Of a stretch of DNA of 64,000 nt, positions 4,685 to 43,975 are shown piece after piece. The stretch spans positions 186,001 to 250,000 of the forward strand of contig NZ_LDZY01000002.1 of NCBI RefSeq assembly GCF_001029285.1, read 5' to 3'. The translations under genes and the position numbers were made by a program. Each line of letters opens with the position of its first letter. Positions within the stretch are counted from its first letter, which is position 1. This DNA comes from Desulfosporosinus acididurans (lineage in GTDB: Bacteria; Bacillota; Desulfitobacteriia; Desulfitobacteriales; Desulfitobacteriaceae). A model generated the notes under the pieces. The model was not told where the DNA came from and searched no databases. It saw only the letters and a list, made by a program, of their open reading frames with translations.

Positions 4685-5695
4685 TTGGGCTATAGGTTTA
4701 CCGCCGCGGCGTTTAATCAGCTTCTTGAGAGTCTAAGGGAAAAGTACCGAGTCTATGCGCCGACTTTATTAAAAGGCAAAGGCAAGTTTTCCGATACCGA
4801 TTTGGTCGGGTATGCTGAAATCTCAAAAATTGAAGACGTTGTCTTTAACCAAAAGTCCTATTTTTCTCCTAAAGAAACCTTTTATCCTGTTACTCAGAGA
4901 CTTTTCTATTTTAATGAAAATGGGTTTAGTGAAGCTGTTGTTGATGAAAAAGGTATGATTGTTTTCTTGCGTGCTTGTGACATACAGGCGGTAGAACGTC
5001 TGGATAAAATAATGTTAGAAAACGGTCTCTCTGCGGATTATTACTATGAGAGACTGAGAAATAAACTAAAGCTGATTGTTATGGATTGTCAGGAGAGCTT
5101 TGACAGTTGTTTTTGCGTTAGTATGGGAACTAATAAGACTGAGAACTACAGTGCATCTGTGCGTTTGGAGAACGGTGTTTATCTAAGCGATGTTCAAGAA
5201 GACATTGAAGGATTGTTTGCCTTCCATGGTGAGACGATTGAGGTGTCTCCTAAGTTTGTTGAGAGTAATAAGCAATCAGTTAAGGTCCCAGAAAATCTGG
5301 TCCTTGAATCGGTGGCTGCAAACCCTATCTGGGAGGAGTATGGTTCACGCTGTATTGCCTGCGGACGCTGTACTGTCGTCTGTCCCAGCTGTAGTTGTTA
5401 TACAATGCAGGATATTTTCTATGACGATAACCCTAAGTGCGGAGAGAGACGTCGGGTTTGGGCCAGCTGCCAGATCGATGGTTTTACAGATATGGCCGGG
5501 GGGCACAGCTTTCGCCGTAATAATGGAGAGCGGATGCGTTTCAAGGTTATGCACAAAATAAAAGACTTTAAACAAAGATTCGGAGTTCATATGTGTGTTG
5601 GATGCGGACGTTGTGACAATGCCTGTCCCGAATACATCTCCTTGGCTCACTGCATCGACCGCCTGGGCAAAGAGGAGGCAGGAAACCGTGGTTAA
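4685..5695 (+). CDS. asrA: Anaerobic sulfite reductase subunit A (electron-transfer Fe-S subunit)
   Basis: This 336-residue Fe-S subunit of the AsrABC complex reduces sulfite to sulfide in the cytoplasm. The C-terminal third holds two cysteine clusters, CIACGRCTVVCPSCSC (about 222-237) and CVGCGRCDNACPEY (about 307-320). The N-terminal two thirds match the AsrA-specific region that is shared with the large hydrogenase beta-subunit-like family. The start is TTG, preceded by AAAGGAAGTG. The 3' end overlaps asrB by eight bases. The upstream CRP/FNR-type site suggests activation by a redox or nitrosative/sulfite-responsive regulator. Confidence 0.95.
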   Translation: MGYRFTAAAFNQLLESLREKYRVYAPTLLKGKGKFSDTDLVGYAEISKIEDVVFNQKSYFSPKETFYPVTQRLFYFNENGFSEAVVDEKGMIVFLRACDIQAVERLDKIMLENGLSADYYYERLRNKLKLIVMDCQESFDSCFCVSMGTNKTENYSASVRLENGVYLSDVQEDIEGLFAFHGETIEVSPKFVESNKQSVKVPENLVLESVAANPIWEEYGSRCIACGRCTVVCPSCSCYTMQDIFYDDNPKCGERRRVWASCQIDGFTDMAGGHSFRRNNGERMRFKVMHKIKDFKQRFGVHMCVGCGRCDNACPEYISLAHCIDRLGKEEAGNRG

Positions 5696-6509
5696 AAACA
5701 GCTATATACCCTTTAAGGCTAAAATTCTCGCTAAATATCAACAGACCGAACTGGATTGGACCTACCGTTTAGAGTGCCAGATACAACCTATTGCCGGTCA
5801 ATTTATGGAAGTCTCCCTTCCCGGAGTCGGGGAATGTCCGATTTCCATCAGTGACTTTGGGGATGGCTATATCGAAATGACCATTCGCAGGGTTGGCCAG
5901 GTGACAGGGGGTATCGATAAGCTAGTTCCGGGAGATTATCTTTTCCTGCGAGGCCCTTATGGGAAAGGGTTTCCTCTGGAGTCCTTTTACAATAAACATT
6001 TGATTATCGCCGCAGGTGGAACAGGACTTGCTCCTGTCAAAAGTGTCATTAATTACTTCTATGCTCGTCCGGAGCTTTTGCAACGGTGCGATATTTTAAC
6101 CGGATTTAAAACCCCTAACGACGTTTTGTTTAAACATGACTTAGATAAATGGGCCCAAACGTTCAGAGTTGAAGTTACCGTTGATAAACTTGATGAGTCT
6201 GGAAACCTCGAAGTAATCGCCAATTCTTGCAGCCGCAGAACAGGTCTTATTACTGCTTTGATTCCGGATGTAGAGATACCCTCCCTGGAAGATGTGCGGG
6301 TTATCATCGTTGGTCCGCCGGTCATGATGAAGTTTACTGCTCAAGAATTCCTGTGCAGAGGCTTAGCCAAAGAGAACATTTGGGTCTCTTTTGAACGTAA
6401 AATGTCTTGCGGCCTTGGCAAATGCGGTCATTGCAAGATTGACGAAACGTATGTATGTTTGGAAGGTCCGGTATTTAATTTTGCTCAAGCGCAAACTCTC
6501 TTGGATTAG
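5688..6509 (+). CDS. asrB: Anaerobic sulfite reductase subunit B (flavin/NAD(P)H subunit)
   Basis: This 273-residue ferredoxin-NADP reductase-like subunit passes electrons from NAD(P)H to AsrA and AsrC. It shows the FAD-binding barrel, the nucleotide loop AAGGTGLAPV (residues about 107-116), and a C-terminal cysteine-rich 2Fe-2S motif (CGLGKCGHC followed by a distal C). GTG at 5688 is chosen because AGGAGG lies 9 bases upstream and the length then matches known AsrB proteins. The open frame extends 31 codons further into asrA without a ribosome site. It overlaps asrA by 8 bases and lies 15 bases before asrC. Confidence 0.95.
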   Translation: MVKNSYIPFKAKILAKYQQTELDWTYRLECQIQPIAGQFMEVSLPGVGECPISISDFGDGYIEMTIRRVGQVTGGIDKLVPGDYLFLRGPYGKGFPLESFYNKHLIIAAGGTGLAPVKSVINYFYARPELLQRCDILTGFKTPNDVLFKHDLDKWAQTFRVEVTVDKLDESGNLEVIANSCSRRTGLITALIPDVEIPSLEDVRVIIVGPPVMMKFTAQEFLCRGLAKENIWVSFERKMSCGLGKCGHCKIDETYVCLEGPVFNFAQAQTLLD

Positions 6510-6524
6510 TTGGAGGGATTTAGG

Positions 6525-7511
6525 ATGACAATTAATACAAAAAAAGTTATGAAAAATGCCTGGCGGATTACGAAAGACAGAAATCTTACCTGTCTGCGTC
6601 TCAGGGTACCCGGAGGTCATTTGCCGGTAAAGCTGCTTCCGCTGGTCCAGGAAATAGCTGAACGCTTCGGCAATGGCGAAGTTCATCTCACGACAAGACA
6701 AGGCTTGGAAATTCCTGCTATTCCTTTTGAGTACATGAAGGAAATTAATGCTCTCCTCGAGCCATTCCTTGAGGAACTGGAAGTTAATATCGGAGTACTC
6801 CTCGAGCAGCCTGCTCAGGGTTATCCTGCGGCTGGGACACGAAATGTAGTAGCTTGTATCGGCAATAAAGTTTGTACTAATGCTGTGTTTGATACGACGG
6901 CTTTAGCTAAGGATATCGAGAAAATTATTTACCCTAATAATCCCCACGTTAAAATTGCAGTCACCGGCTGCCCCAATGACTGCGTAAAAGTTCATATGCA
7001 TGATATCGGCATTATTGGACAGGTTGAACCTCTTTACGATGCCCAGCGCTGCATTAACTGCCAAGCCTGTGTTAAAAATTGTGCCAAGGTTTCTACCGGG
7101 GCTCTTTCCATAGTCAATTATAAAGTGAAACGAGATGCTTCCCGCTGTATAGGCTGCGGCGAGTGTGTTTTGAAATGTCCGACAGGTGCCTGGACTCGGG
7201 GCGGACAATATTATCGAGTTGTGGTTATGGGCAGAACCGGGAAAAAGAATCCTCGTTTAGCTGCTCCATTCCTGGAATGGGCAGAACGAGAAGCAGTCCT
7301 GCGGCTGTGTAATAACCTTTATGATTATATTGATAAGCACATTGACCGTTCTCTTCCTAAAGAACATGTTGGTTATATCCTGGATCGCACAGGCTATCCT
7401 GTCTTTAGAGAGGAGATGCTTAAGGGAGTTGAATTGGGCCCGAAAGCAAAAACAGCCAATTATTTGGATTTCTCAGGATACACCTATGATAAAAAATGTC
7501 TTTTTGACTAA
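6525..7511 (+). CDS. asrC: Anaerobic sulfite reductase subunit C (siroheme catalytic subunit)
   Basis: This 328-residue catalytic subunit has the siroheme/4Fe-4S ligand pattern C-x5-C (ACIGNKVC, about residues 111-118) and C-x3-C (GCPNDC, about 149-154). An inserted two-cluster ferredoxin domain follows (RCINCQACVKNC and RCIGCGECVLKCP). TTRQGLEIPAI is the substrate-side loop typical of nitrite/sulfite reductases. ATG at 6525 sits six bases after GGAGGG and is preferred to an upstream in-frame TTG. It is the last gene of asrABC; the next gene is convergent. Confidence 0.95.
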   Translation: MTINTKKVMKNAWRITKDRNLTCLRLRVPGGHLPVKLLPLVQEIAERFGNGEVHLTTRQGLEIPAIPFEYMKEINALLEPFLEELEVNIGVLLEQPAQGYPAAGTRNVVACIGNKVCTNAVFDTTALAKDIEKIIYPNNPHVKIAVTGCPNDCVKVHMHDIGIIGQVEPLYDAQRCINCQACVKNCAKVSTGALSIVNYKVKRDASRCIGCGECVLKCPTGAWTRGGQYYRVVVMGRTGKKNPRLAAPFLEWAEREAVLRLCNNLYDYIDKHIDRSLPKEHVGYILDRTGYPVFREEMLKGVELGPKAKTANYLDFSGYTYDKKCLFD

Positions 7512-7523
7512 TTTGGTCAATAA

Positions 7524-8648
7524 TTAGTACATTAAATCCTTTACTTTTTCAGCCAAAGTCAGGGAAGAGGTTAAACCGGGCGATTCTATGCCGATGAGGT
7601 TAATTAACCCTTCAAAACCGCGTTCGGCTTCATGACAGACAATGAAATCGCGAACGGGATCACCAGGGGCCTGAATTTTTGGGCGTATGCCGGCCATGTC
7701 AGGCAAGAAATCCTCAGAGTCTAAAAATGGCATATACGTTGTGACGGCATTATAGAACTCCTGCCCATGAGCTTCATCTACATCATAATTCAGGGTTTCG
7801 GTATAGAAAGCATTGGGGCCGAACCTCAGCCGACCATCCAAGGATTTGGTAGCATGTATACCTAAGCCCTTCAGTGCCTTGAGGGGAGGCGGATAAATAA
7901 GATGTGACACCAGTGCGGATTTGGAGCTCGGAACACTAAAATATTCTCCTTTGCAGGGATAGATGCGGTAACCGCTGTTATCAATGTCAATCCCCAGGAA
8001 GGAAGGAATATGATCTGAATTTAAGCCTGCACAGTTGATAAGCCATTGGCAGCGCAGTGTTTCGAGTTGGCCTGCCGGGTTGCGGTAAGTCACCTCATAG
8101 CCCTTATCCATGTGTTCAACACCTTGGACGTTATGCTGATAGGCTATAACGGCTCCTTGTTCAAGAGCTAACCATTCAAGTCTTAACATCAACTGGTGAG
8201 AGTCAACGATCCCGGTAGAAGGAGATAAGACGGCGGCGACCGCGCTAATGTGGGGCTCTAATCGGGCGATCTGATCGTTGTCGATAAGTTCCAGATCATT
8301 AACTCCGTTCTTTTGCCCCTGTTCCAGAAGGGAGTCCAGTACTGGGATTTCCTGTTCACTTCGGGCAATAATTAATTTCCCAATTCGTTGATGAGGAATA
8401 TTCCAAGCCCGGCAGAAGTGATAAAGGCGTTGGTTGCCCTCAACACATAGGTTTGCCTTGAGACTTCCTGATGGATAATAAATACCGGCATGGATGACTT
8501 CGCTGTTGCGGCTGGAGGTTTCCTGCCCAAATTTGCTATGCCGCTCAAGCAGGACCAGAGAACGATCATTGAATTGCTTTGATAGTTCCGCAGCGACGGC
8601 TAAACCGACGACTCCCGCTCCGATAACAACAATATCTACTTGCTCCAT
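7524..8648 (-). CDS. FAD-dependent oxidoreductase, L-2-hydroxyglutarate dehydrogenase-like
   Basis: This 374-residue DAO-fold flavoprotein starts with the Rossmann motif VIGAGVVGLAVAAELS and ends near residue 360 with the second FAD-contact strand (NLIGIESPGLTSSLTLA). The substrate-domain layout (ERHSKFGQETSSRNSEVIHAGIYY, and NCAGLNSD) is typical of the LhgO/L2HGDH branch. No Cys cluster or membrane segment is present. It probably oxidises a 2-hydroxyacid or an amine; the true substrate is not shown. It is convergent with asrC (12-base gap) and stands alone; the ribosome site (GGGACGG) is modest. Confidence 0.85.
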   Translation of the reverse strand: MEQVDIVVIGAGVVGLAVAAELSKQFNDRSLVLLERHSKFGQETSSRNSEVIHAGIYYPSGSLKANLCVEGNQRLYHFCRAWNIPHQRIGKLIIARSEQEIPVLDSLLEQGQKNGVNDLELIDNDQIARLEPHISAVAAVLSPSTGIVDSHQLMLRLEWLALEQGAVIAYQHNVQGVEHMDKGYEVTYRNPAGQLETLRCQWLINCAGLNSDHIPSFLGIDIDNSGYRIYPCKGEYFSVPSSKSALVSHLIYPPPLKALKGLGIHATKSLDGRLRFGPNAFYTETLNYDVDEAHGQEFYNAVTTYMPFLDSEDFLPDMAGIRPKIQAPGDPVRDFIVCHEAERGFEGLINLIGIESPGLTSSLTLAEKVKDLMY

Positions 8649-8991: not shown

Positions 8992-10221
8992 TTAATATCT
9001 GTTATCGAAAATCCGCGTGGATTTCTTCTCACTTCGGGGAAGTTCACCAATGGCAACAGCCTTTGGCACAATTGTGATTCCGATTTTTGCTTTACAATGT
9101 TGCTTGACGTTCTGTTCAATGACTCGTTTATCGGCTTCATTCTCCGTTTCAAAGAACACCGTCATAATATCTTTCCCATTCAAATGGTCAATAATGACCT
9201 GATATTCACTGCTTGCTCCCTCAACTTCCCGCAGCATTTCATCAATTTGCGCCGGAAAAATATTTGTGCCTTTAACTTTAACCATATCGTCGGTTCGGCC
9301 AATCAGGGTATCGATCCTTGGATATTTCAAACCACAAGCACATTCTCCTGGTATGAACCGCGTCAGATCGTGAGTGCGATAGCGAATGAGCGGAGCGCCT
9401 TCTTTACGGAGAGTTGTAATAACCAACTCGCCGATCTCCCCAAAAGGAACCGGTTCTCCGGTATTATGATTAATAATCTCAAAATAGAAATAGTCATCCC
9501 AATAATGCATGCCGCATTCTTGATCACAGCTCATAGCGATGCCGGGCCCGTAGATTTCAGTCAAACCATAGACATCATAGAGCTGAACTCCGAGTTCATT
9601 GGCTATGCGGCGGCGCATTTTTTCTCCCCAACGCTCTGAACCAATGATGCCCTTAGTAAGATGAATTTTATCTTTGACTTTGCGTTTGGTGATCTCTTCC
9701 GCTAAAAGTAAGGCATAGGAAGACGTCGCACATAAAACTGTACTTTTTAAATCTTTCATCATCTGAATTTGCTTGTCCGTATTCCCAGGTCCCATAGGAA
9801 TAACCATAGCACCTAACAGTTCTGCACCGGTCTGAAAACCTATTCCTGCAGTCCATAAACCATAACCGGGCGTGATATGGACTCGGTCTAAATTGGTTAA
9901 CCCGGCAGTTTCATAACAGCGTTTGAACATTTCTGCCCAATCAGCAACATCCTTTTTAGTATAGGGAATGATTACCGGAGTACCCGTCGTGCCGGAAGAG
10001 GAGTGAATACGAACAATTTCACTGTCGGGAACTGCCTGAAGTCCTAAGGGATAAGCCTCTCTTAAATCGCCTTTGTCAGTAAAAGGGAGCTTTTCAAAAT
10101 CCCCTTGGCTCTGAATAGCCGTTACATCGATGTCTGCAAATCTTTTCTTATAAAACCCATCGACTCGGGAAAGTTTGACAAGCATTTTTTTAATAGCGTC
10201 AAATTGGGCCTGATTCATCAT
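8992..10221 (-). CDS. paaK: Phenylacetate/arylacetate-CoA ligase
   Basis: This 409-residue AMP-forming ligase has the phosphate-binding loop SSSGTTGTPVI, the DVYGLTEIYGPG adenylate motif, and the C-terminal hinge and lysine region (RTDDMVKVKGTNIFPAQI; LPRSEKKSTRI). It activates phenylacetate, indoleacetate or 4-hydroxyphenylacetate to the CoA thioester. It is slightly shorter than aerobic PaaK, like the versions paired with indolepyruvate oxidoreductase in anaerobes and archaea. It starts six bases after iorB. AAAGGAG precedes two consecutive ATG codons, so the start may shift by one codon. It is co-regulated with iorAB by the T-box upstream of iorA. Confidence 0.93.
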   Translation of the reverse strand: MMNQAQFDAIKKMLVKLSRVDGFYKKRFADIDVTAIQSQGDFEKLPFTDKGDLREAYPLGLQAVPDSEIVRIHSSSGTTGTPVIIPYTKKDVADWAEMFKRCYETAGLTNLDRVHITPGYGLWTAGIGFQTGAELLGAMVIPMGPGNTDKQIQMMKDLKSTVLCATSSYALLLAEEITKRKVKDKIHLTKGIIGSERWGEKMRRRIANELGVQLYDVYGLTEIYGPGIAMSCDQECGMHYWDDYFYFEIINHNTGEPVPFGEIGELVITTLRKEGAPLIRYRTHDLTRFIPGECACGLKYPRIDTLIGRTDDMVKVKGTNIFPAQIDEMLREVEGASSEYQVIIDHLNGKDIMTVFFETENEADKRVIEQNVKQHCKAKIGITIVPKAVAIGELPRSEKKSTRIFDNRY

Positions 10222-10227
10222 TTTAAA

Positions 10228-10815
10228 TTACTCCTTTATGGCGGTTTTAGCGCCTGCACGCAATGCTTTTAGATTCATCGCAATAAATTGCTGTGGTAAT
10301 TTATGCTCAATGGTTCGCTCTATTTCTGCCAAAGAAATATCGAATACACCGGCAGCTGCCGCCGCTCCCAGCAGGGCAATATTTAAAACTCTAGTGCTGC
10401 CGCAGGCAGCGAAGATTGGCTCAACATCAATAATGATCAGACGTTTGACATGACTTTTCAGGTAGTCAAGCATTTCTGTTCCCTCATAATTCGTGTTGGC
10501 AAGAGAGTCTGTAACCGGCTTGATATCTTTTTGGCTGACAATGACAATTCCTTCTTCTTTTAAATAAGGCAAGCTTCTCACCGCTTCGGCAGGTTCAAAG
10601 CCAATAATAACATCGGCGGACCTGAGGGGAACCAAGGGAGAATGAATCTCTTCACCAATTCGGACATGGCTGACGACACAGCCGCCGCGCTGTGCCATAC
10701 CAATAGTTTCCGCTGTGCGGACGTTTTTGCCCTTGCCCATGGCCGTTTGGGCAATGAGTTTCGATGCAAGTACCGTACCTTGACCGCCGACCCCCGCTAA
10801 AATGCAATTAATCAT
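10228..10815 (-). CDS. iorB: Indolepyruvate ferredoxin oxidoreductase, beta subunit
   Basis: This 195-residue gamma-domain-type subunit of 2-oxoacid oxidoreductases starts CILAGVGGQGTVLASKL, the CoA-binding glycine loop, and continues with ETIGMAQRGGCVVSHVRIG, both typical of IorB. With IorA it interconverts aryl-2-oxoacids and aryl-acetyl-CoA using ferredoxin. The ATG directly follows the iorA stop (TAA then ATG), and the ribosome site GGAGGTG lies within the last iorA codons. Confidence 0.95.
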   Translation of the reverse strand: MINCILAGVGGQGTVLASKLIAQTAMGKGKNVRTAETIGMAQRGGCVVSHVRIGEEIHSPLVPLRSADVIIGFEPAEAVRSLPYLKEEGIVIVSQKDIKPVTDSLANTNYEGTEMLDYLKSHVKRLIIIDVEPIFAACGSTRVLNIALLGAAAAAGVFDISLAEIERTIEHKLPQQFIAMNLKALRAGAKTAIKE

Positions 10816-12603
10816 TTAGTTTGCACCTCCGATTGCCTTAAATGGACAGACTTGTGCACATATTGAACAGCCATAACATAAGGAAGCATCAATTCGAACT
10901 TTGTTATTATCTTTAACAATAGCCGGACATCCCAATTCCTTAATACATAGTTTACAGCCTGTACATTTGTCGCTGTCAACTGAAAAGACAGGTGCCGGGT
11001 CGGCAACAGCAATGCAGGGGGATTTAAAGATAACAGCGGATATCCCCTTGTTGGCGGCTGCTTCTTCGACGGCTGCGCTAGAGTCTTGGAGGTTAAAAGG
11101 ATTCATCGTTGTAATATGCTTAACGCCGAGTGCTTTCAGCACTTCGCTGATCTTGATTTTTTCAGAAATGTTTCCCATCATTGTTTTGCCTGTTCCCGGA
11201 TGTGGTTGGTGACCGGTCATAGCAGTTGTTGAGTTGTCTAAGATAATAAGAACAATATCTGTCTCATTGTAAACGGCATTAATGACACCGGGTATACCCG
11301 TGTGGAAAAAGGTAGAGTCTCCGATAAAAGCAAAATTTACCGCATCGGGTTCTGCTCGATGAAGGCCTTGGGCTATGGTAATTCCGGCGCCCATGCAAAG
11401 GCACGTATCAACCATGTCCAAGGGCTTGGCGTTTCCTAACGTATAGCAGCCGATGTCACCGGAGAAAACGGCCTTTCGCCCTTTCATCGCTTGTTTTACG
11501 GCATAGAAAGAAGCTCTGTGCGGACAACCTGCACATAAAACAGGCGGCCTGACGGGAAGAGCCGGCATATCCTCAGAGGGTTTTACAGGATGAATTGGGA
11601 TTCGCAAAAATTCAGAAACGGCCTTACTGACTGACTCGACTGAATTTTCCCCGGCGTTTTGGATATGCTTTGTCAGCTTGCCCATAATTCTCACAGGTAA
11701 ATGATGCTTTCCGCATAAGTAAACCAATTCTTTTTCAATAACAGGATCTAATTCTTCGATTACGAGAACTTCATCAAGGCCTGTCAGGAATTCGAGAGCC
11801 AATTTCTCCGGGAAAGGATGCGGTGTAGCCACGCGGAAGATTTTGCATTCTCCCTTTAGGTTTGATAATGCTTCGCAAGTATAGGCATAACTGATTCCTC
11901 CGGAAGCAATCCCCTTTTTACCGCTTCCCTGCAGGGAATTATAGCGATAAGACGAAAAATCTTCACTAAGCACAGGCTGTCGTGCTTCCATTTTCAAATG
12001 ATTGAGGTAAGAAAGCCGGGGGAAAATTGCCCACTTGGGGTCTTTAATGAAGCCCTCGGCTTTAACTTCAAAGCGTTTTTCTTCAAGATCGACTGTGGCA
12101 TAACCATGGCATACTCTGGTAGTTGGACGGAATAACACGGGAGTATTATATTTCTCCGAGTATTCAAAAGCATCACCGATCATCAGATAGGCTTCTTCGG
12201 GAGAAGAGGGGTCAAAGACAGGTAATTTGGCAAAGATGCCAAAATGCCTGGTGTCCTGTTCCGTTTGTGAAGAGATCGGGCCGGGGTCATCGGCGACGAC
12301 GATAACCATGCCTCCTTTGACGCCAAGGTAGGCCAGACTCATTAAGGGGTCTGAAGCTACATTTAGTCCAACCTGTTTCATGGTTACCATGGTTCGAAAC
12401 CCGGCGAAAGCAGCGCCAGAGGCAACTTCCAATGCCGATTTTTCGTTGACAGACCACTCAACATAGATGCCGGGATTCCTCTTAGCAACTGTTTCCAGGA
12501 TTTCAGTTGAAGGTGTACCTGGATATCCTGTAACGACTCCGACTCCGGAGCGAATTGCACCCAGAGCGATAGCCTGATTGCCCATTAATAACTCTAATGC
12601 CAT
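10816..12603 (-). CDS. iorA: Indolepyruvate ferredoxin oxidoreductase, alpha subunit
   Basis: This 595-residue TPP-dependent subunit has an N-terminal pyrimidine-binding domain (GYPGTPSTEIL, about residues 25-35), a C-terminal TPP/Mg domain (GDIGCYTLG, GDSTFFHTG, about 400-460) and two 4Fe-4S clusters at the end (KCTGCKLCIKELGC and LCYGCSICAQVCP). The length is that of the normal family. The ATG follows GGGAGGT. The gene sits directly behind a complete T-box leader with a probable Trp specifier, so the operon is expected to be induced by uncharged tRNA-Trp. Confidence 0.95.
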   Translation of the reverse strand: MALELLMGNQAIALGAIRSGVGVVTGYPGTPSTEILETVAKRNPGIYVEWSVNEKSALEVASGAAFAGFRTMVTMKQVGLNVASDPLMSLAYLGVKGGMVIVVADDPGPISSQTEQDTRHFGIFAKLPVFDPSSPEEAYLMIGDAFEYSEKYNTPVLFRPTTRVCHGYATVDLEEKRFEVKAEGFIKDPKWAIFPRLSYLNHLKMEARQPVLSEDFSSYRYNSLQGSGKKGIASGGISYAYTCEALSNLKGECKIFRVATPHPFPEKLALEFLTGLDEVLVIEELDPVIEKELVYLCGKHHLPVRIMGKLTKHIQNAGENSVESVSKAVSEFLRIPIHPVKPSEDMPALPVRPPVLCAGCPHRASFYAVKQAMKGRKAVFSGDIGCYTLGNAKPLDMVDTCLCMGAGITIAQGLHRAEPDAVNFAFIGDSTFFHTGIPGVINAVYNETDIVLIILDNSTTAMTGHQPHPGTGKTMMGNISEKIKISEVLKALGVKHITTMNPFNLQDSSAAVEEAAANKGISAVIFKSPCIAVADPAPVFSVDSDKCTGCKLCIKELGCPAIVKDNNKVRIDASLCYGCSICAQVCPFKAIGGAN

Positions 12604-12648
12604 AGTCTTACCTCCCTGATATGATTTTCAAAATAAAGGTTTCCTAAA

Positions 12649-12940
12649 AGCAAAAAAGCCATATCACCCACATAAATATGGGGCGATATAGCTCGCGGTG
12701 CCACCCAATTCAGAAACCGGCACTTTCTCGGAAAGTTGGTTTCTCTTCAAAAGGTACGCAACGCAGGTGTCAAACCTTAGTATTAATACCCTTCCCTTAT
12801 AACGCAGGGACAACGGCGCGGGCTAGTTAAGCATTGCTCTTTTACCCTGCTCCTCCCAGAACCATTCGCTGATTTCCACTGCACCGGACCTTTCACCAAT
12901 CGCCGGCTCGCTTCTCAATATTCATCAGTTACTTTTTCTG
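12649..12940 (-). promoter_or_regulatory. T-box riboswitch, probable Trp specifier, controlling iorA-iorB-paaK
   Basis: On the minus strand the T-box sequence GGGTGGCACCGCG lies at 12694-12707. It is followed by a terminator hairpin (AGC-ATATC arms) with a TTTTTT run ending near 12649. Stem I shows the usual GCGAGCCGG and TTGGTGAAAG elements, and a specifier region reading GAA-TGG-TTCTGGGAG, with TGG at 12862-12864. The Ile leader in this same window reads GAAG-ATC-ACCTTGGAG with identical spacing to GGAG/GGGAG, which supports TGG (Trp) as specifier. Phe (TTC) is the main alternative. Confidence 0.88.
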
Positions 12941-13199
12941 ATCATAGGATTTAATTTAAAATTTACTTAATTTTAGATGGAATAAGTTCCTTTGTCAATA
13001 GGCACCTGGTAAGCTCTCTCGTGCAGATGCGGTGAAATGCTAAAATATCTGCAGGTATTTGCGGTCAAGCTATTTACTTATTATGGAATATTTTCCTGCT
13101 AATACAACTAATATTTACTTAAACGCAATTATATGATACAATAAGCCAACATCAGGGTGACAACTTCGCTAAACCTCCTTTGTTATCATTTAAAGTGGG

Positions 13200-14518: not shown

Positions 14519-15361
14519 ATGACTAGCTTTAGAAAATACAAATACTTAAAGAAACCTATCAATTGGTACCTATCGCTAAAAGCCACGATCGTTACAGGGC
14601 TATTGTTTTTATTGATCTTTGGCTTTTTCTTGCCCTTAAGGGCTGGAAAAGCAAACAATCCCACGCAATCTCCTGATTCAACAGCAAAGGAAACCCAGAC
14701 CCAGACCCAGACTAAAACCAGAACAATCCCCGCTTCTGCGCCCTCAACTCAAACTATTGTTCAATCCGAATCCCAATCGAGATCTTCATTATCGACTATA
14801 GTGCCAAGCAGAGAAATAAAGGCCGACTTTTCAAATGTAATATTTGTCGGTGATTCAATAACATATGGATTTAAGAAGTCTCACAATACTGTAGTAAAAC
14901 AGGACCACGTTTATGCCAAAATTGGGGCTCATGTTTATGAAGGGGCTAAACTTTTGGGAGACAACAGCAATATAATCAGGAGTCGATGTAATGGTTCGGT
15001 AGATTATGTATTCCTGATGTTTGGAGCAAACGATTTTGGCTATGATATGCGTTCTTACCAAAAATGGTATAAAGAATTAATAGAATCCACAAAAAGGATG
15101 TTCCCCGAGTCCAAAATTATTTTGCAATCTGTGATGCCTATGAAGAGTACCATTGATCAACCGCAAAGGAATTTGGAGCCGCAAAAACTGAATAAGATTG
15201 TAAAAGCTGTAGCTGCTGAAGAAGATGTAACGTATTTGGATATTTCCAAGAGTATTCCTAATGCGACAAATTTACTTCTTTCAGATGGATTGCACTTTAA
15301 ATCAGAGTTGTATCCCCTCTGGATTGCGGTGATTAAAAATAATGTTAAACAACTATTATAA
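14519..15361 (+). CDS. Membrane-anchored SGNH/GDSL hydrolase (1 of 3)
   Basis: This 280-residue protein has one N-terminal TM (about 20-42), a Ser/Thr/Gln-rich linker with a QTQTQT run, and an SGNH-hydrolase domain (about 100-280). The catalytic Ser block is FVGDSITYG, the Asn block is MFGANDFG, and the Asp-His pair is LSDGLHFKS. Outside the cell it probably removes or adds acyl groups on a polysaccharide. It belongs to a local group with two other SGNH proteins (15475 and 21665), an MBOAT transferase and a DHHW protein. Confidence 0.88.
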   Translation: MTSFRKYKYLKKPINWYLSLKATIVTGLLFLLIFGFFLPLRAGKANNPTQSPDSTAKETQTQTQTKTRTIPASAPSTQTIVQSESQSRSSLSTIVPSREIKADFSNVIFVGDSITYGFKKSHNTVVKQDHVYAKIGAHVYEGAKLLGDNSNIIRSRCNGSVDYVFLMFGANDFGYDMRSYQKWYKELIESTKRMFPESKIILQSVMPMKSTIDQPQRNLEPQKLNKIVKAVAAEEDVTYLDISKSIPNATNLLLSDGLHFKSELYPLWIAVIKNNVKQLL

Positions 15362-15474: not shown

Positions 15475-16368
15475 CTATAGAGCATTGTTTTGCAGAAAGT
15501 TTAACCAAGAAGTATAAAAAGACGGTTTATAGTGTATGCCATCATTGGCATAGTAACTTTGATTAAAGTTAACTAAAGATGAAGGATTAATAAATCCAAC
15601 ATTTTCATTATTGGCTATCTGGAAGATTGCCGAATTATATTCGTCAATATTAACATTATTTAAAGAGGGATTTCTTTGAGTTGCTTGATTTTGCACAGGA
15701 AGGATAGATTGTACATATATTTTGGCATTTGGGCATTCGGCCTTGACCGTATTTATTAAGTCGGTATAGTGCTGAGTAAATTGGGCCTTTGTATATTTTC
15801 CCACGTCATTAACTCCACACATAATAAAAACTCTTTGCGGATTCTGTTTTGCCGCCGAATCAACCAACTGTCTAACCTTGTCAGTACCAATTCCAACTTG
15901 GGCATAGACCTTGGAATCATCCAACAGTTTGTAGGCAGATAATCCTTTCGTTATTGAATCTCCTAAAAACACATCATTATTAAATATTTTATTGTAATTG
16001 CTGTTAGATGAGGTGGAGTATATGGGCTGGTTCTGTGAATAAATTCGGGCAACTTGATTTTTATCTTCCAAAGGCAGCGAACCGGTTTCATGTTCGAGAA
16101 GGGTATGGGCAATTAAATTAGTAAAAAGCTGATTCGTGAGCATATTATTATGGACGCTCAATATATTAGGGAATGAATTATCTGAATTATCAAAGCTTGA
16201 GGAATTGGAGTTAAATAGACCGGAAGAGTCTTCAGTATGTAAAAGTTCGTATTGCAAAAATGTTTCAAAGCAATTGAGAAATGCAGGCAGTTCGCTTTTG
16301 GTGGAAGATTCTTGATTAAGAGTACTGGATTGAAGTAATGTTGCTAAATCAGGATTAGATATATACAT
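15475..16368 (-). CDS. SGNH/GDSL hydrolase without a signal sequence (2 of 3)
   Basis: This 297-residue protein has a C-terminal SGNH domain (about 130-297): FLGDSITKGLS, MCGVNDVGK, NDGIHYKPS. Unlike its two neighbours it has no N-terminal TM or signal peptide. Instead residues 1-125 form a polar, Asn/Ser-rich region with a helical part (NMLTNQLFTNLIAHTLLEHETG) that I do not recognise. The start is ATG with GGGAGGATATAACAATA before it. It is transcribed toward the first SGNH gene. The decayed IS110-type element lies just upstream and may have separated it from its original promoter. Confidence 0.82.
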   Translation of the reverse strand: MYISNPDLATLLQSSTLNQESSTKSELPAFLNCFETFLQYELLHTEDSSGLFNSNSSSFDNSDNSFPNILSVHNNMLTNQLFTNLIAHTLLEHETGSLPLEDKNQVARIYSQNQPIYSTSSNSNYNKIFNNDVFLGDSITKGLSAYKLLDDSKVYAQVGIGTDKVRQLVDSAAKQNPQRVFIMCGVNDVGKYTKAQFTQHYTDLINTVKAECPNAKIYVQSILPVQNQATQRNPSLNNVNIDEYNSAIFQIANNENVGFINPSSLVNFNQSYYANDGIHYKPSFYTSWLNFLQNNAL

Positions 16369-16454: not shown

Positions 16455-18200
16455 ACCACGGATAGAATTCGCATAAAATGTCTAATTCGGAGAAATTGGA
16501 TATGGCAAAGCCAACGTCTACTATTTGTGGATATGTTGGCCGTTGTAAACCCATGATTCTCACGGTGGTAAACCTCCCATGTCTAACAGGGTCAAGATTA
16601 TAAATCTGCCCTAAATTCCTTCGTTCCACCTATCCATGATTGGGTGTCAGTTATGCTCCTCTACCGAGTCCTTGCTCTAATGGAAAAATATGCGACTGAC
16701 TACCAGCTCTTTTGTTTTGCTAGGTTACCTGGATTGCTCGCTTCTGTGGTGACGCTTTAACCCACAGATCGTTTGTTTCTTATGGTTTCGCTGCTATTCT
16801 AATTACGCTGCTAAATGCTCAACTGGACGATGAATGTCCTTAATTAGCTTTTCTGGATCGTATTCTGTACCTTTTGTTAATATTGCATAGAACACCCGAA
16901 TTAGTTTACAGCTTAAGGGCAATTAGTGATTGTTTCTTCTTCAGGGGATTCTTGATCCTTGTTGTGTAGTAGTTGTGTATCTCTGCAAACTCTGCGTTTT
17001 TTTGCGACTAGCGGCATCACTGCTTGAAATAGGATTGCCCTCAGTCGTGCGCGGCCGCGCTTACTGATCGTGGTCTGTCCCTTGTGCTTACCTGAGCTGC
17101 TTTCTCGTAAGGCTAAGCCCGCAAGCTTTTGGATCTGCTTTGGAGAATTAAAGCGTCTAATATCTCCAACTTCGGAGAGAAAGCCTGCCACGGTAACAAG
17201 GCCAACACCTTTAATTTCAAGTAACTTCGCTACTTCTGGTATCTGACGGCACAACTCATCGATGGTTTCTATGACTGCCTGATATTGTGCTGTTTTAGTG
17301 TGATAGTCTTGGAGTAATAGCTGAATTTCCATTCGGGAACAAGACTCTCCTTCGGTGCAACCAATGCTCTTCTGAGCAGCTTCATACAGGCTCTTAGCCC
17401 TTTTCATTCCGACTGCTCTCAACTTGTTGTCTCTCCAAATTCGGTTTATTCCTTCTACTCCAAGTCTTTTGATATCCCTAGGTTGCGGGGCAACTTGCAG
17501 AACCAGCATGCTACTTGTCGCATCAAACTTTCCAAACACCGTTTCATGCTCGGGAAAGTAGATTTTCAGCCACCTCTGAATGCGATTTTTTATACTGCTC
17601 ATTTCCTTTTGGATGCGCATTCTGCAAGCCATCGCTATTCGCAGTTCTGCATAGATCCCCTCCGGGATATAGGGCTCATTGTATCTCCCCTCGATGACCA
17701 GCTTAGCAATTGTTTTGGGGTCCTTAGCATCCGTTTTGCTGGGGTGGTTGTCATCAAGCTCCTTACTACGCTTTACATGGAATGGGTTTACGAGGACTAG
17801 CTTAATGCTTTGCTCTTTTAGATATGATGCCAGGCCGAACCAGTAATGGCCGGTTGGCTCTGCGCCTACCACTATGCAGTCCTTTTGTGCTTGACCTTTT
17901 AAACGTTCAATCCATGCATAGAAATCCCTGAATCCTTCAGCACTGTTTTCAAACTTGAATACTTTGCCCAGCTCTACTCCTCGCCAGTCGAAAGCCCTGG
18001 CGTAATGAAGCTCGCTGGCGATGTCCACTCCGATAACAATACTTCTTTCAGAAAGTTGCTTTAGTTTCTCGTTTTGTGTAAAATTCATTTGGGATGACCT
18101 CCGTTATTTTGATTGGATTCTGTTGGCCAACAGTCCTTTCAAATTGTAACGTGAGGTCTTCTTTTTGACAAAGCTCATTTTTTCCTACTACAGGAATGCT
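16455..18200 (-). mobile_element. IS110/IS1111-type insertion sequence, decayed (ends approximate)
   Basis: The element contains a DEDD transposase pseudogene with about 340 bases of structured-looking non-coding sequence on its 3' side (16455-16802) and a shorter 5' side (18089-18200). The 5' side holds the palindrome TGTTGGCCAACA; a TGTTGGCC also occurs in the 3' part. IS110-type elements lack conventional inverted repeats, so the ends cannot be fixed from one copy. Non-coding ends of this family encode the bridge RNA, and the long 3' side is the candidate region here. Confidence 0.55.
16803..18088 (-). pseudogene. IS110-family DEDD transposase, frameshifted twice near the C-terminus
   Basis: The uninterrupted frame (391 residues to 16913) has the RuvC-like DEDD motifs GVDIASELHYA, GAEPTGHYW and SKTDAKDPKTIA, and the catalytic-Ser domain around LALRESSSGKHKGQTTISKRGRARLR. 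After VAK the frame diverges at a run of seven A (16997-17003). Reading with six A restores a family-like sequence (NAEFAEIHNYYTTRIKN), and dropping one A near 16915 then continues into CKLIRVFYAILTKGTEYD and ends at 16803-16805. Two single-base insertions therefore broke the last 90 or so residues. The start has a GAGGTCATCCCAA leader, and the copy is probably inactive. Confidence 0.85.
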
Positions 18201-43387: not shown

Positions 43388-43724
43388 TACTGGAGTTTAC
43401 ATTATGGTCCATGTCAGGTGCCAGGCTTTTAGGTAAAGCGTGGGCAGCGAGATTAAAATGAGTATTCCGGGTAAAAAAAGTACTAGGAAGGGTTTACTTT
43501 TAGCAAAATATTGGTTAAACTTTATTAATTAGATCTACTAATTGGCTAACTTTATTAACCCTTTCGCATACGCTTAATTTGGATTTTCACGTTATTTCTT
43601 ACAATCTTTTAGGCGTATGGGTATTATAATTCGAGGATACGTGGGGGGATTGTAAATGTTAACCTTGAGTAAAAGACTAATGGTGTAGGTTTAAAGTTTT
43701 ATAATTTCGGTTAAAGTATGGAAA

Positions 43725-43975
43725 ACAACGATGAAAAGGACAGTAATCTAGAATCCGGTTCTTAGAGACATAATCCCTGGCTGAAAGATTATGACGAAGG
43801 TTCTTTATGAAGATCACCTTGGAGTTGGGCGGCTGAACTAATTAAGCTGCTCCGAGTGACATACGTTACATGTTTTGAGTGATTAACGGATTGTTTCTTG
43901 AACAATCCATTAATAAAAAGGGTGGTACCGCGATAATTCGTCCCTAAGTCATAGACTTAGGGACTTTTGTTGTTA
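43725..43975 (+). promoter_or_regulatory. T-box riboswitch of ileS, Ile specifier
   Basis: The T-box sequence AGGGTGGTACCGCG (43919-43932) is followed by a perfect terminator stem GTCCCTAAGTC / GACTTAGGGAC (43940-43964) and TTTTGTTGTT. The specifier region reads GAAG-ATC-ACCTTGGAG with ATC (Ile) at 43813-43815. Uncharged tRNA-Ile should stabilise the antiterminator and switch on ileS. Confidence 0.95.

Follow-up and report, generated by a model that had tools for sequence, protein, structure and literature searches.

The iorA-iorB-paaK operon and its leader

The window, by which we mean the whole 64-kb stretch of DNA that was analysed, contains the genes iorA, iorB, and paaK in this order on the minus strand, with gaps of almost nil between them. 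The iorA gene (10816..12603, minus strand) encodes the alpha subunit of indolepyruvate:ferredoxin oxidoreductase (IOR), including a TPP domain and a C-terminal 4Fe-4S region; its product passes the equivalog cut-off for IOR alpha (TIGR03336, 745.7 bits; cut-off 650.9), and PF02775, PF01855, and PF00037 are matched above their cut-offs. The nearest named iorA is that of Desulfosporosinus sp. FKB (96% identical), and no second IOR match at E<=1e-60 occurs in the source genome. The products of the other 2 genes fall in the correct families, but with equivalog scores below the cut-offs. The second IOR subunit, encoded by iorB (10228..10815, minus strand), scores 165.4 bits with TIGR03334 (cut-off 205.8) and 174.2 bits with NF004918 (cut-off 278), and exceeds the cut-off of PF01558 with 141.4 bits. 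The ligase gene (8992..10221, minus strand) encodes a protein of the AMP-binding family that matches PF00501 and PF14535 above cut-off and TIGR02155 with 377.5 bits, below the PaaK equivalog cut-off of 646.3; judged from these family matches, the enzyme is PaaK-like. Its best matches among solved structures are the phenylacetate-CoA ligases 4r1l (E 1e-99) and 2y27.

Beyond paaK, the minus strand continues with an L-2-hydroxyglutarate oxidase-like gene (7524-8648, minus strand; 280.7 bits, slightly below the cut-off of 299), followed by genes for the anaerobic sulfite reductase subunits asrB and asrC on the opposite strand (5595-7511, plus strand; above cut-off). On the other side, a convergent ORF pair (14519-15361, plus strand, and 15475-16368, minus strand) appears by eye to be SGNH hydrolase-like (GDSIT motif), and a further ORF (16913-18088, minus strand) resembles, by eye, an IS110-type transposase.

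At the gathering threshold, Rfam returned 2 matches in the 64-kb window, both of them T-box leaders (RF00230): one ahead of iorA (12676..12954, minus strand; 93.3 bits against a gathering value of 93, E 4.1e-19, and E 7.0e-21 in a search of the source genome) and one ahead of an ORF identified by eye as ileS (43722..43948, plus strand; 117.7 bits), which served as a control for the codon register. The full T-box leader that the earlier note had described ahead of iorA is thus confirmed, with a 5′ end 14 bases further upstream than the position 12940 given there. Several homologous leaders score slightly below the gathering value (82.8-92.7 bits), and others reach 121.7 (L025) and 107.7 (the genome of L054).

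A sigma-70-type promoter, TTGACA-N17-TAAAAT (12970..12998, minus strand), was recognised by eye upstream of the leader, and a TTGACA-N17-TA(A/G)AAT arrangement was likewise seen by eye ahead of the L051 and L052 leaders. The lower part of stem I is formed by a 5′ strand CAGA (12937..12940, minus strand), which pairs with positions 12860-12857, that is, with the 3′ strand UCUG (12857..12860, minus strand) located by the codon-blind stem rule described below; the types of these pairs differ across 25 leaders. Further downstream, the T-box sequence GGGUGGCACCGCG (12694..12706, minus strand) includes a UGGC that could base-pair with the terminal GCCA of tRNA-Trp (G73), the tRNA-Trp gene of the source genome ending in ...CCCCT-G-CCA. 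The leader closes with an intrinsic terminator (12652..12692, minus strand), a hairpin (12692-12658) followed by six T, whose 5′ arm shares sequence with the antiterminator 3′ arm. This hairpin folds at -21.5 kcal/mol (z -7.25), a stability that none of 200 shuffles attained. Stem I and the short antiterminator piece do not exceed shuffled sequences in stability (z 0.10 and 0.05, respectively); therefore, their assignment draws on the family model and the covariation rather than on energy.

Assignment of the specifier codon

The codon-blind rule takes a lower stem of 4 bp, with the 5′ strand starting 14 bases into the Rfam match, and reads the codon, one spacer base, and the 3′ strand. Applied to the iorA leader, it ranks UGG (Trp; 12862..12864, minus strand) first, in the form UGG-U-UCUG with CAGA; at offset 15 it also finds AUG, with a lower rank. 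In the Rfam alignment, this UGG shares its columns with the AUC codon of the ileS leader, which the rule also recovers. The earlier note had read the specifier as TGG by alignment with the Ile leader and had proposed placement with a covariance model as a check; the Rfam columns and the codon-blind rule agree with that reading.

The rule was controlled at offset 14 on the T-boxes of the source genome, whose targets were named by eye from translations. The cognate codon was recovered in 11 of 14 T-boxes with a known target (trpS, cysE-cysS, ileS, leuS, thrS, leuA, valS, trpE, proC, serC, and glyQ), although it ranked only second for cysE-cysS and leuA. The failures were pheS (Phe codon found only at offset 15), tyrS (wrong codon), and hisS (no solution).

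The same register was followed through 25 distinct ior/paaK-linked leaders: the 22 found among the closest relatives (below) together with those of the source genome, G009, and G069. Duplicates of the same leader were left out, namely L019 (from the source genome, = L010) and L020, L022, and L025 (= L051, L052, and L070). The full RF00230 model scored 11 of the 25; for the other 14, the antiterminator model was used together with the stem rule. A pattern search requiring TGG placed UGG in register in all 25; because such a search by itself could not show that no other codon fits, the survey was repeated with the codon-blind rule, which ranked UGG first in 24 of the 25 and gave no solution only in L067, a leader included in the pattern-search result. 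The base pairs of the lower stem vary between loci, the spacer can be A, U, G, or C, and in none of the 25 leaders does a Phe or Tyr codon stand in register. As a point against, 17 of the 25 carry U and not C at the position that would pair with the discriminator base, although the trpS leader of the source genome does so as well.

A Met specifier, which would make the operon responsive to methionine, is extremely improbable: the shifted stem AGAA/UUCU also pairs in the iorA leader, which makes AUG formally possible, and the AUG register is able to pair in 7 of the 25 leaders (AUG is absent in L063, since that leader reads GUGG), but UGG stands in register in 25 of 25 leaders by the TGG-requiring search and in 24 of 25 by the codon-blind rule, the spacing from the GAG motif and the Rfam alignment are consistent with UGG, and the UGGC of the iorA T-box goes with the G73 end of tRNA-Trp, whereas the three tRNA-Met genes called by ARAGORN end in A73. 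The Trp specificity asserted in the earlier note is well supported at the level of sequence.

The Trp T-box among related operons and genomes

The source genome contains 18 T-boxes, of which those with UGG precede trpS, trpE, one DAHP synthase gene, and iorA. Two genes identified by eye as DAHP synthases carry T-boxes with different specifiers, UUC (Phe) at L008 and UGG (Trp) at L009. Among the UGG leaders, the T-box sequence contains UGGC in iorA and trpE and UGGU in trpS and the DAHP synthase gene. TrpC, TrpA, trpD, and trpB are all found above cut-off; thus, the operon adds to an apparently complete Trp pathway.

Relatives were taken from a scan of genome contigs, as the best 80 of 540 IorA relatives. 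An antiterminator covariance model (R1), built from 22 leaders, was run over 95 loci; five ior/paaK-linked leaders (L010, L025, L050, L075, and L096) match it by construction because they were used to build it. An operon T-box was found in 22 of the best 80 iorA loci, 19 times ahead of iorA and 3 times between iorB and paaK (L065, L070, and L124); a number of the carriers are gut and sediment bacteria. In the remaining 58 loci no operon T-box was found, some of them having short upstream DNA (131 bases in L061, 278 in L109, and 472 in L100). Weak R1 matches of <18 bits occur in L074, L101, L115, and L053. The match in L053 ([Clostridium] fimetarium; 5865-5913, ahead of iorA; 11.9 bits, E 4.6) resembles an antiterminator and terminator with no stem I visible by eye; it is perhaps a decayed T-box, and the locus was counted as T-box-negative. 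A T-box on the opposite strand in L061 (5714-5762) belongs to another gene rather than to ior/paaK, and no UGG was seen in register by eye. Of the paralogous IOR loci (clade B, n=13 only), none has a convincing T-box; the weak matches there are in L038 (16 bits, E 0.015, antisense to iorA) and L044 (11 bits, E 0.76).

In a quick tree of iorA, comprising 96 clade rows of which 3 were unscored owing to short upstream DNA, the T-box label requires 11 changes, yet the specifier stays UGG. The distribution is patchy. Across the order, a match at E<=1e-185 was found in 16 of 73 genomes, a count that misses orthologues with a split match (G037, G039, and G041 among them). The iorA-iorB-paaK arrangement is also present in Rhodocyclus tenuis (Pseudomonadota; L102), which forms a long branch among clostridial rows of the tree, a position that suggests horizontal transfer. 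No group of neighbouring genes (ORFs of at least 130 aa) that could be an extra operon member occurs in more than 13 of the 80 loci, the largest group being ABC transporter-like by eye. In five loci (L105, L106, L107, L120, and L123), iorB and paaK are separated by an ORF resembling methylglyoxal synthase by eye. A look for leader-peptide attenuation in the 58 T-box-negative loci found 8 (a raw count, uncorrected for chance) in which a short ORF containing two closely spaced Trp codons lies upstream.

TrpC (PF00218) is absent above cut-off from 30 of the 80 genomes, namely 11 of the 22 with the T-box and 19 of the 58 others. The idea that the T-box marks loss of the Trp branch is not supported, as TrpC absence is not associated with it (Fisher p 0.20) in a comparison confounded by the incompleteness of draft genomes and MAGs. 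Within the 11 TrpC-less T-box genomes, trpD is found above cut-off in 1, trpB in 5, and TrpA in 4, with weak scores of 92-95 bits for two of the TrpA matches; in the draft genome of Clostridium thermopalmarium DSM 5974, none of trpA-D is found above cut-off. Of 40 genomes examined for prephenate dehydratase, the source genome included, 38 have it; thus, loss tends to fall in the Trp branch.

T-box specifiers were also read in 3 further genomes. Caproiciproducens G090 has 13 T-boxes (one without a codon), with UGG ahead of a TrpX-like protein (293.2 bits, below the cut-off of 390), a TrpB-like enzyme (above cut-off), and iorA. In G091, where 10 of 12 T-boxes could be read, UGG precedes a TrpB-like enzyme and iorA. 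The 27 T-boxes of C. thermopalmarium (5 without a codon, a few doubtful) include UGG leaders ahead of trpS (by eye) and iorA. In Caproiciproducens, AUG occupies the specifier register of leader L177, which precedes an ORF identified by eye as metF, and the L179 T-box likewise has AUG in the codon register.

Proposed role in tryptophan acquisition

As read from the DNA, the operon carries a T-box in the Trp register, this T-box recurs on related operons, and it takes its place among those of Trp genes; iorA-iorB-paaK is a member of a Trp T-box regulon with a probable anabolic IOR module. It is quite likely that the operon constitutes a tryptophan-acquisition unit, switched on at Trp shortage, that makes Trp from indoleacetate through indoleacetyl-CoA and indolepyruvate; the induction, the direction, the substrate, and the aminotransferase are the parts that we infer. 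T-boxes raise the expression of their genes in response to uncharged tRNA, and reduced ferredoxin would be the electron donor for IOR. When Trp is short, uncharged tRNA-Trp would pair with the UGG specifier and the T-box sequence, the antiterminator would be stabilised, and iorA-iorB-paaK would be transcribed. PaaK would then convert indoleacetate into indoleacetyl-CoA at the expense of ATP (to AMP), IorAB would work reductively with reduced ferredoxin and CO2 to turn indoleacetyl-CoA into indolepyruvate, and an aromatic aminotransferase would complete the conversion to Trp. For a UGG T-box on trpX of Streptococcus suis, passages of PMC9382623 report that the response to uncharged tRNA was tested. 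The 3 loci in which the T-box precedes paaK alone make activation look like the controlled step. AMP-forming ligases have been argued to favour acyl-CoA synthesis, and a biosynthetic role has been suggested for the Bacteroides IOR, in the part of PMC13285125 used here.

A broader salvage of arylacetates, in which phenylacetate, 4-hydroxyphenylacetate, and indoleacetate would yield Phe, Tyr, and Trp and Trp would be only the control signal, overlaps with the salvage of Trp and is possible, if rather doubtful. The substrates reported for characterised IORs are phenyl-, hydroxyphenyl-, and indolepyruvate (PMC13285125), and the nearest solved structures of the ligase are phenylacetate-CoA ligases. 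Against such breadth stand the specifiers, with a Phe or Tyr codon in register in 0 of 25 leaders, and the pattern of gene loss, in which 38 of 40 genomes retain prephenate dehydratase, whereas 30 of 80 lack TrpC above cut-off.

The usual annotation would make this a catabolic IOR that oxidises Trp to indoleacetate for energy, with the T-box incidental, and this we regard as improbable. Catabolic arylpyruvate oxidoreductases do exist, and no operon T-box was found in 58 of the 80 loci. The IOR of Bacteroides thetaiotaomicron is reported, in the portion of PMC13285125 cited here, to take part in the conversion of Phe to phenylacetate; thus, an IOR beside such a ligase can run oxidatively. However, given the response of T-boxes to uncharged tRNA, Trp breakdown would make little sense for the operon: it would be turned on exactly at Trp shortage. 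Furthermore, according to PMC13285125, many other oxidoreductase clusters lie near a phosphotransferase and kinase or an ADP-forming ligase, whereas the ligase here belongs to the AMP-binding family, and genomes that are TrpC-less (above cut-off) keep the operon under a T-box. The recurrence of the UGG T-box, its placement on paaK alone in 3 loci, and the company of Trp genes fit anabolic salvage and not Trp catabolism, in support of the interpretation given in the earlier note.

If tryptophan acquisition is taken beyond the source genome, the operon might serve in a set of Clostridia as a T-box-controlled alternative Trp supply that replaces the branch from chorismate to Trp, C. thermopalmarium and similar anaerobes using the indoleacetate of their neighbours. 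If true, such a cross-feeding loop would run counter to the assumed flow of indoleacetate in gut and soil. IOR is usually read as a sign of aromatic amino acid catabolism; a Trp T-box on an operon that also encodes a PaaK-like ligase suggests, from the sequence itself, which way the flow runs. A number of Clostridia are accordingly predicted to consume indoleacetate for Trp, which would change pathway calls for indole compounds, and a T-box on iorA or paaK would be a simple sign of anabolic clusters.

The same net reaction has a longer history: Allison and co-workers reportedly described in the 1960s that rumen anaerobes make Trp from indoleacetate by reductive carboxylation. To our knowledge, no genes or regulation have been attached to that work, and the operon would turn this biochemistry into a testable genetic system. 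In the literature searched, we found no paper linking a T-box to IOR, although a mention in subscription T-box surveys is possible; an anabolic IOR has already been proposed for methanogens and Bacteroides.

Among known systems, the trpXYZ T-box of S. suis, as presented in passages of PMC9382623, is alike in its UGG specifier, its UGGC T-box sequence, its terminator and antiterminator, and its control of Trp acquisition; its target is a Trp uptake system, whereas the target of the iorA T-box is a probable indoleacetate salvage. The anabolic IOR of methanogens resembles the proposed module in its reverse use, described or proposed, from aryl acids to aromatic amino acids; by contrast, it is archaeal, and the portions of the sources cited here (PMC4162585, PMC3462420, and PMC13285125) do not mention T-box control. 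The closest likeness in gene arrangement is Bacteroides, where the IOR adjoins an AMP-forming arylacetate-CoA ligase that has been assayed and a biosynthetic role has been suggested; Trp-responsive control is not mentioned in that part of PMC13285125, whereas in the operon described here a regulatory RNA suggests both the direction of the pathway and the amino acid that it serves.
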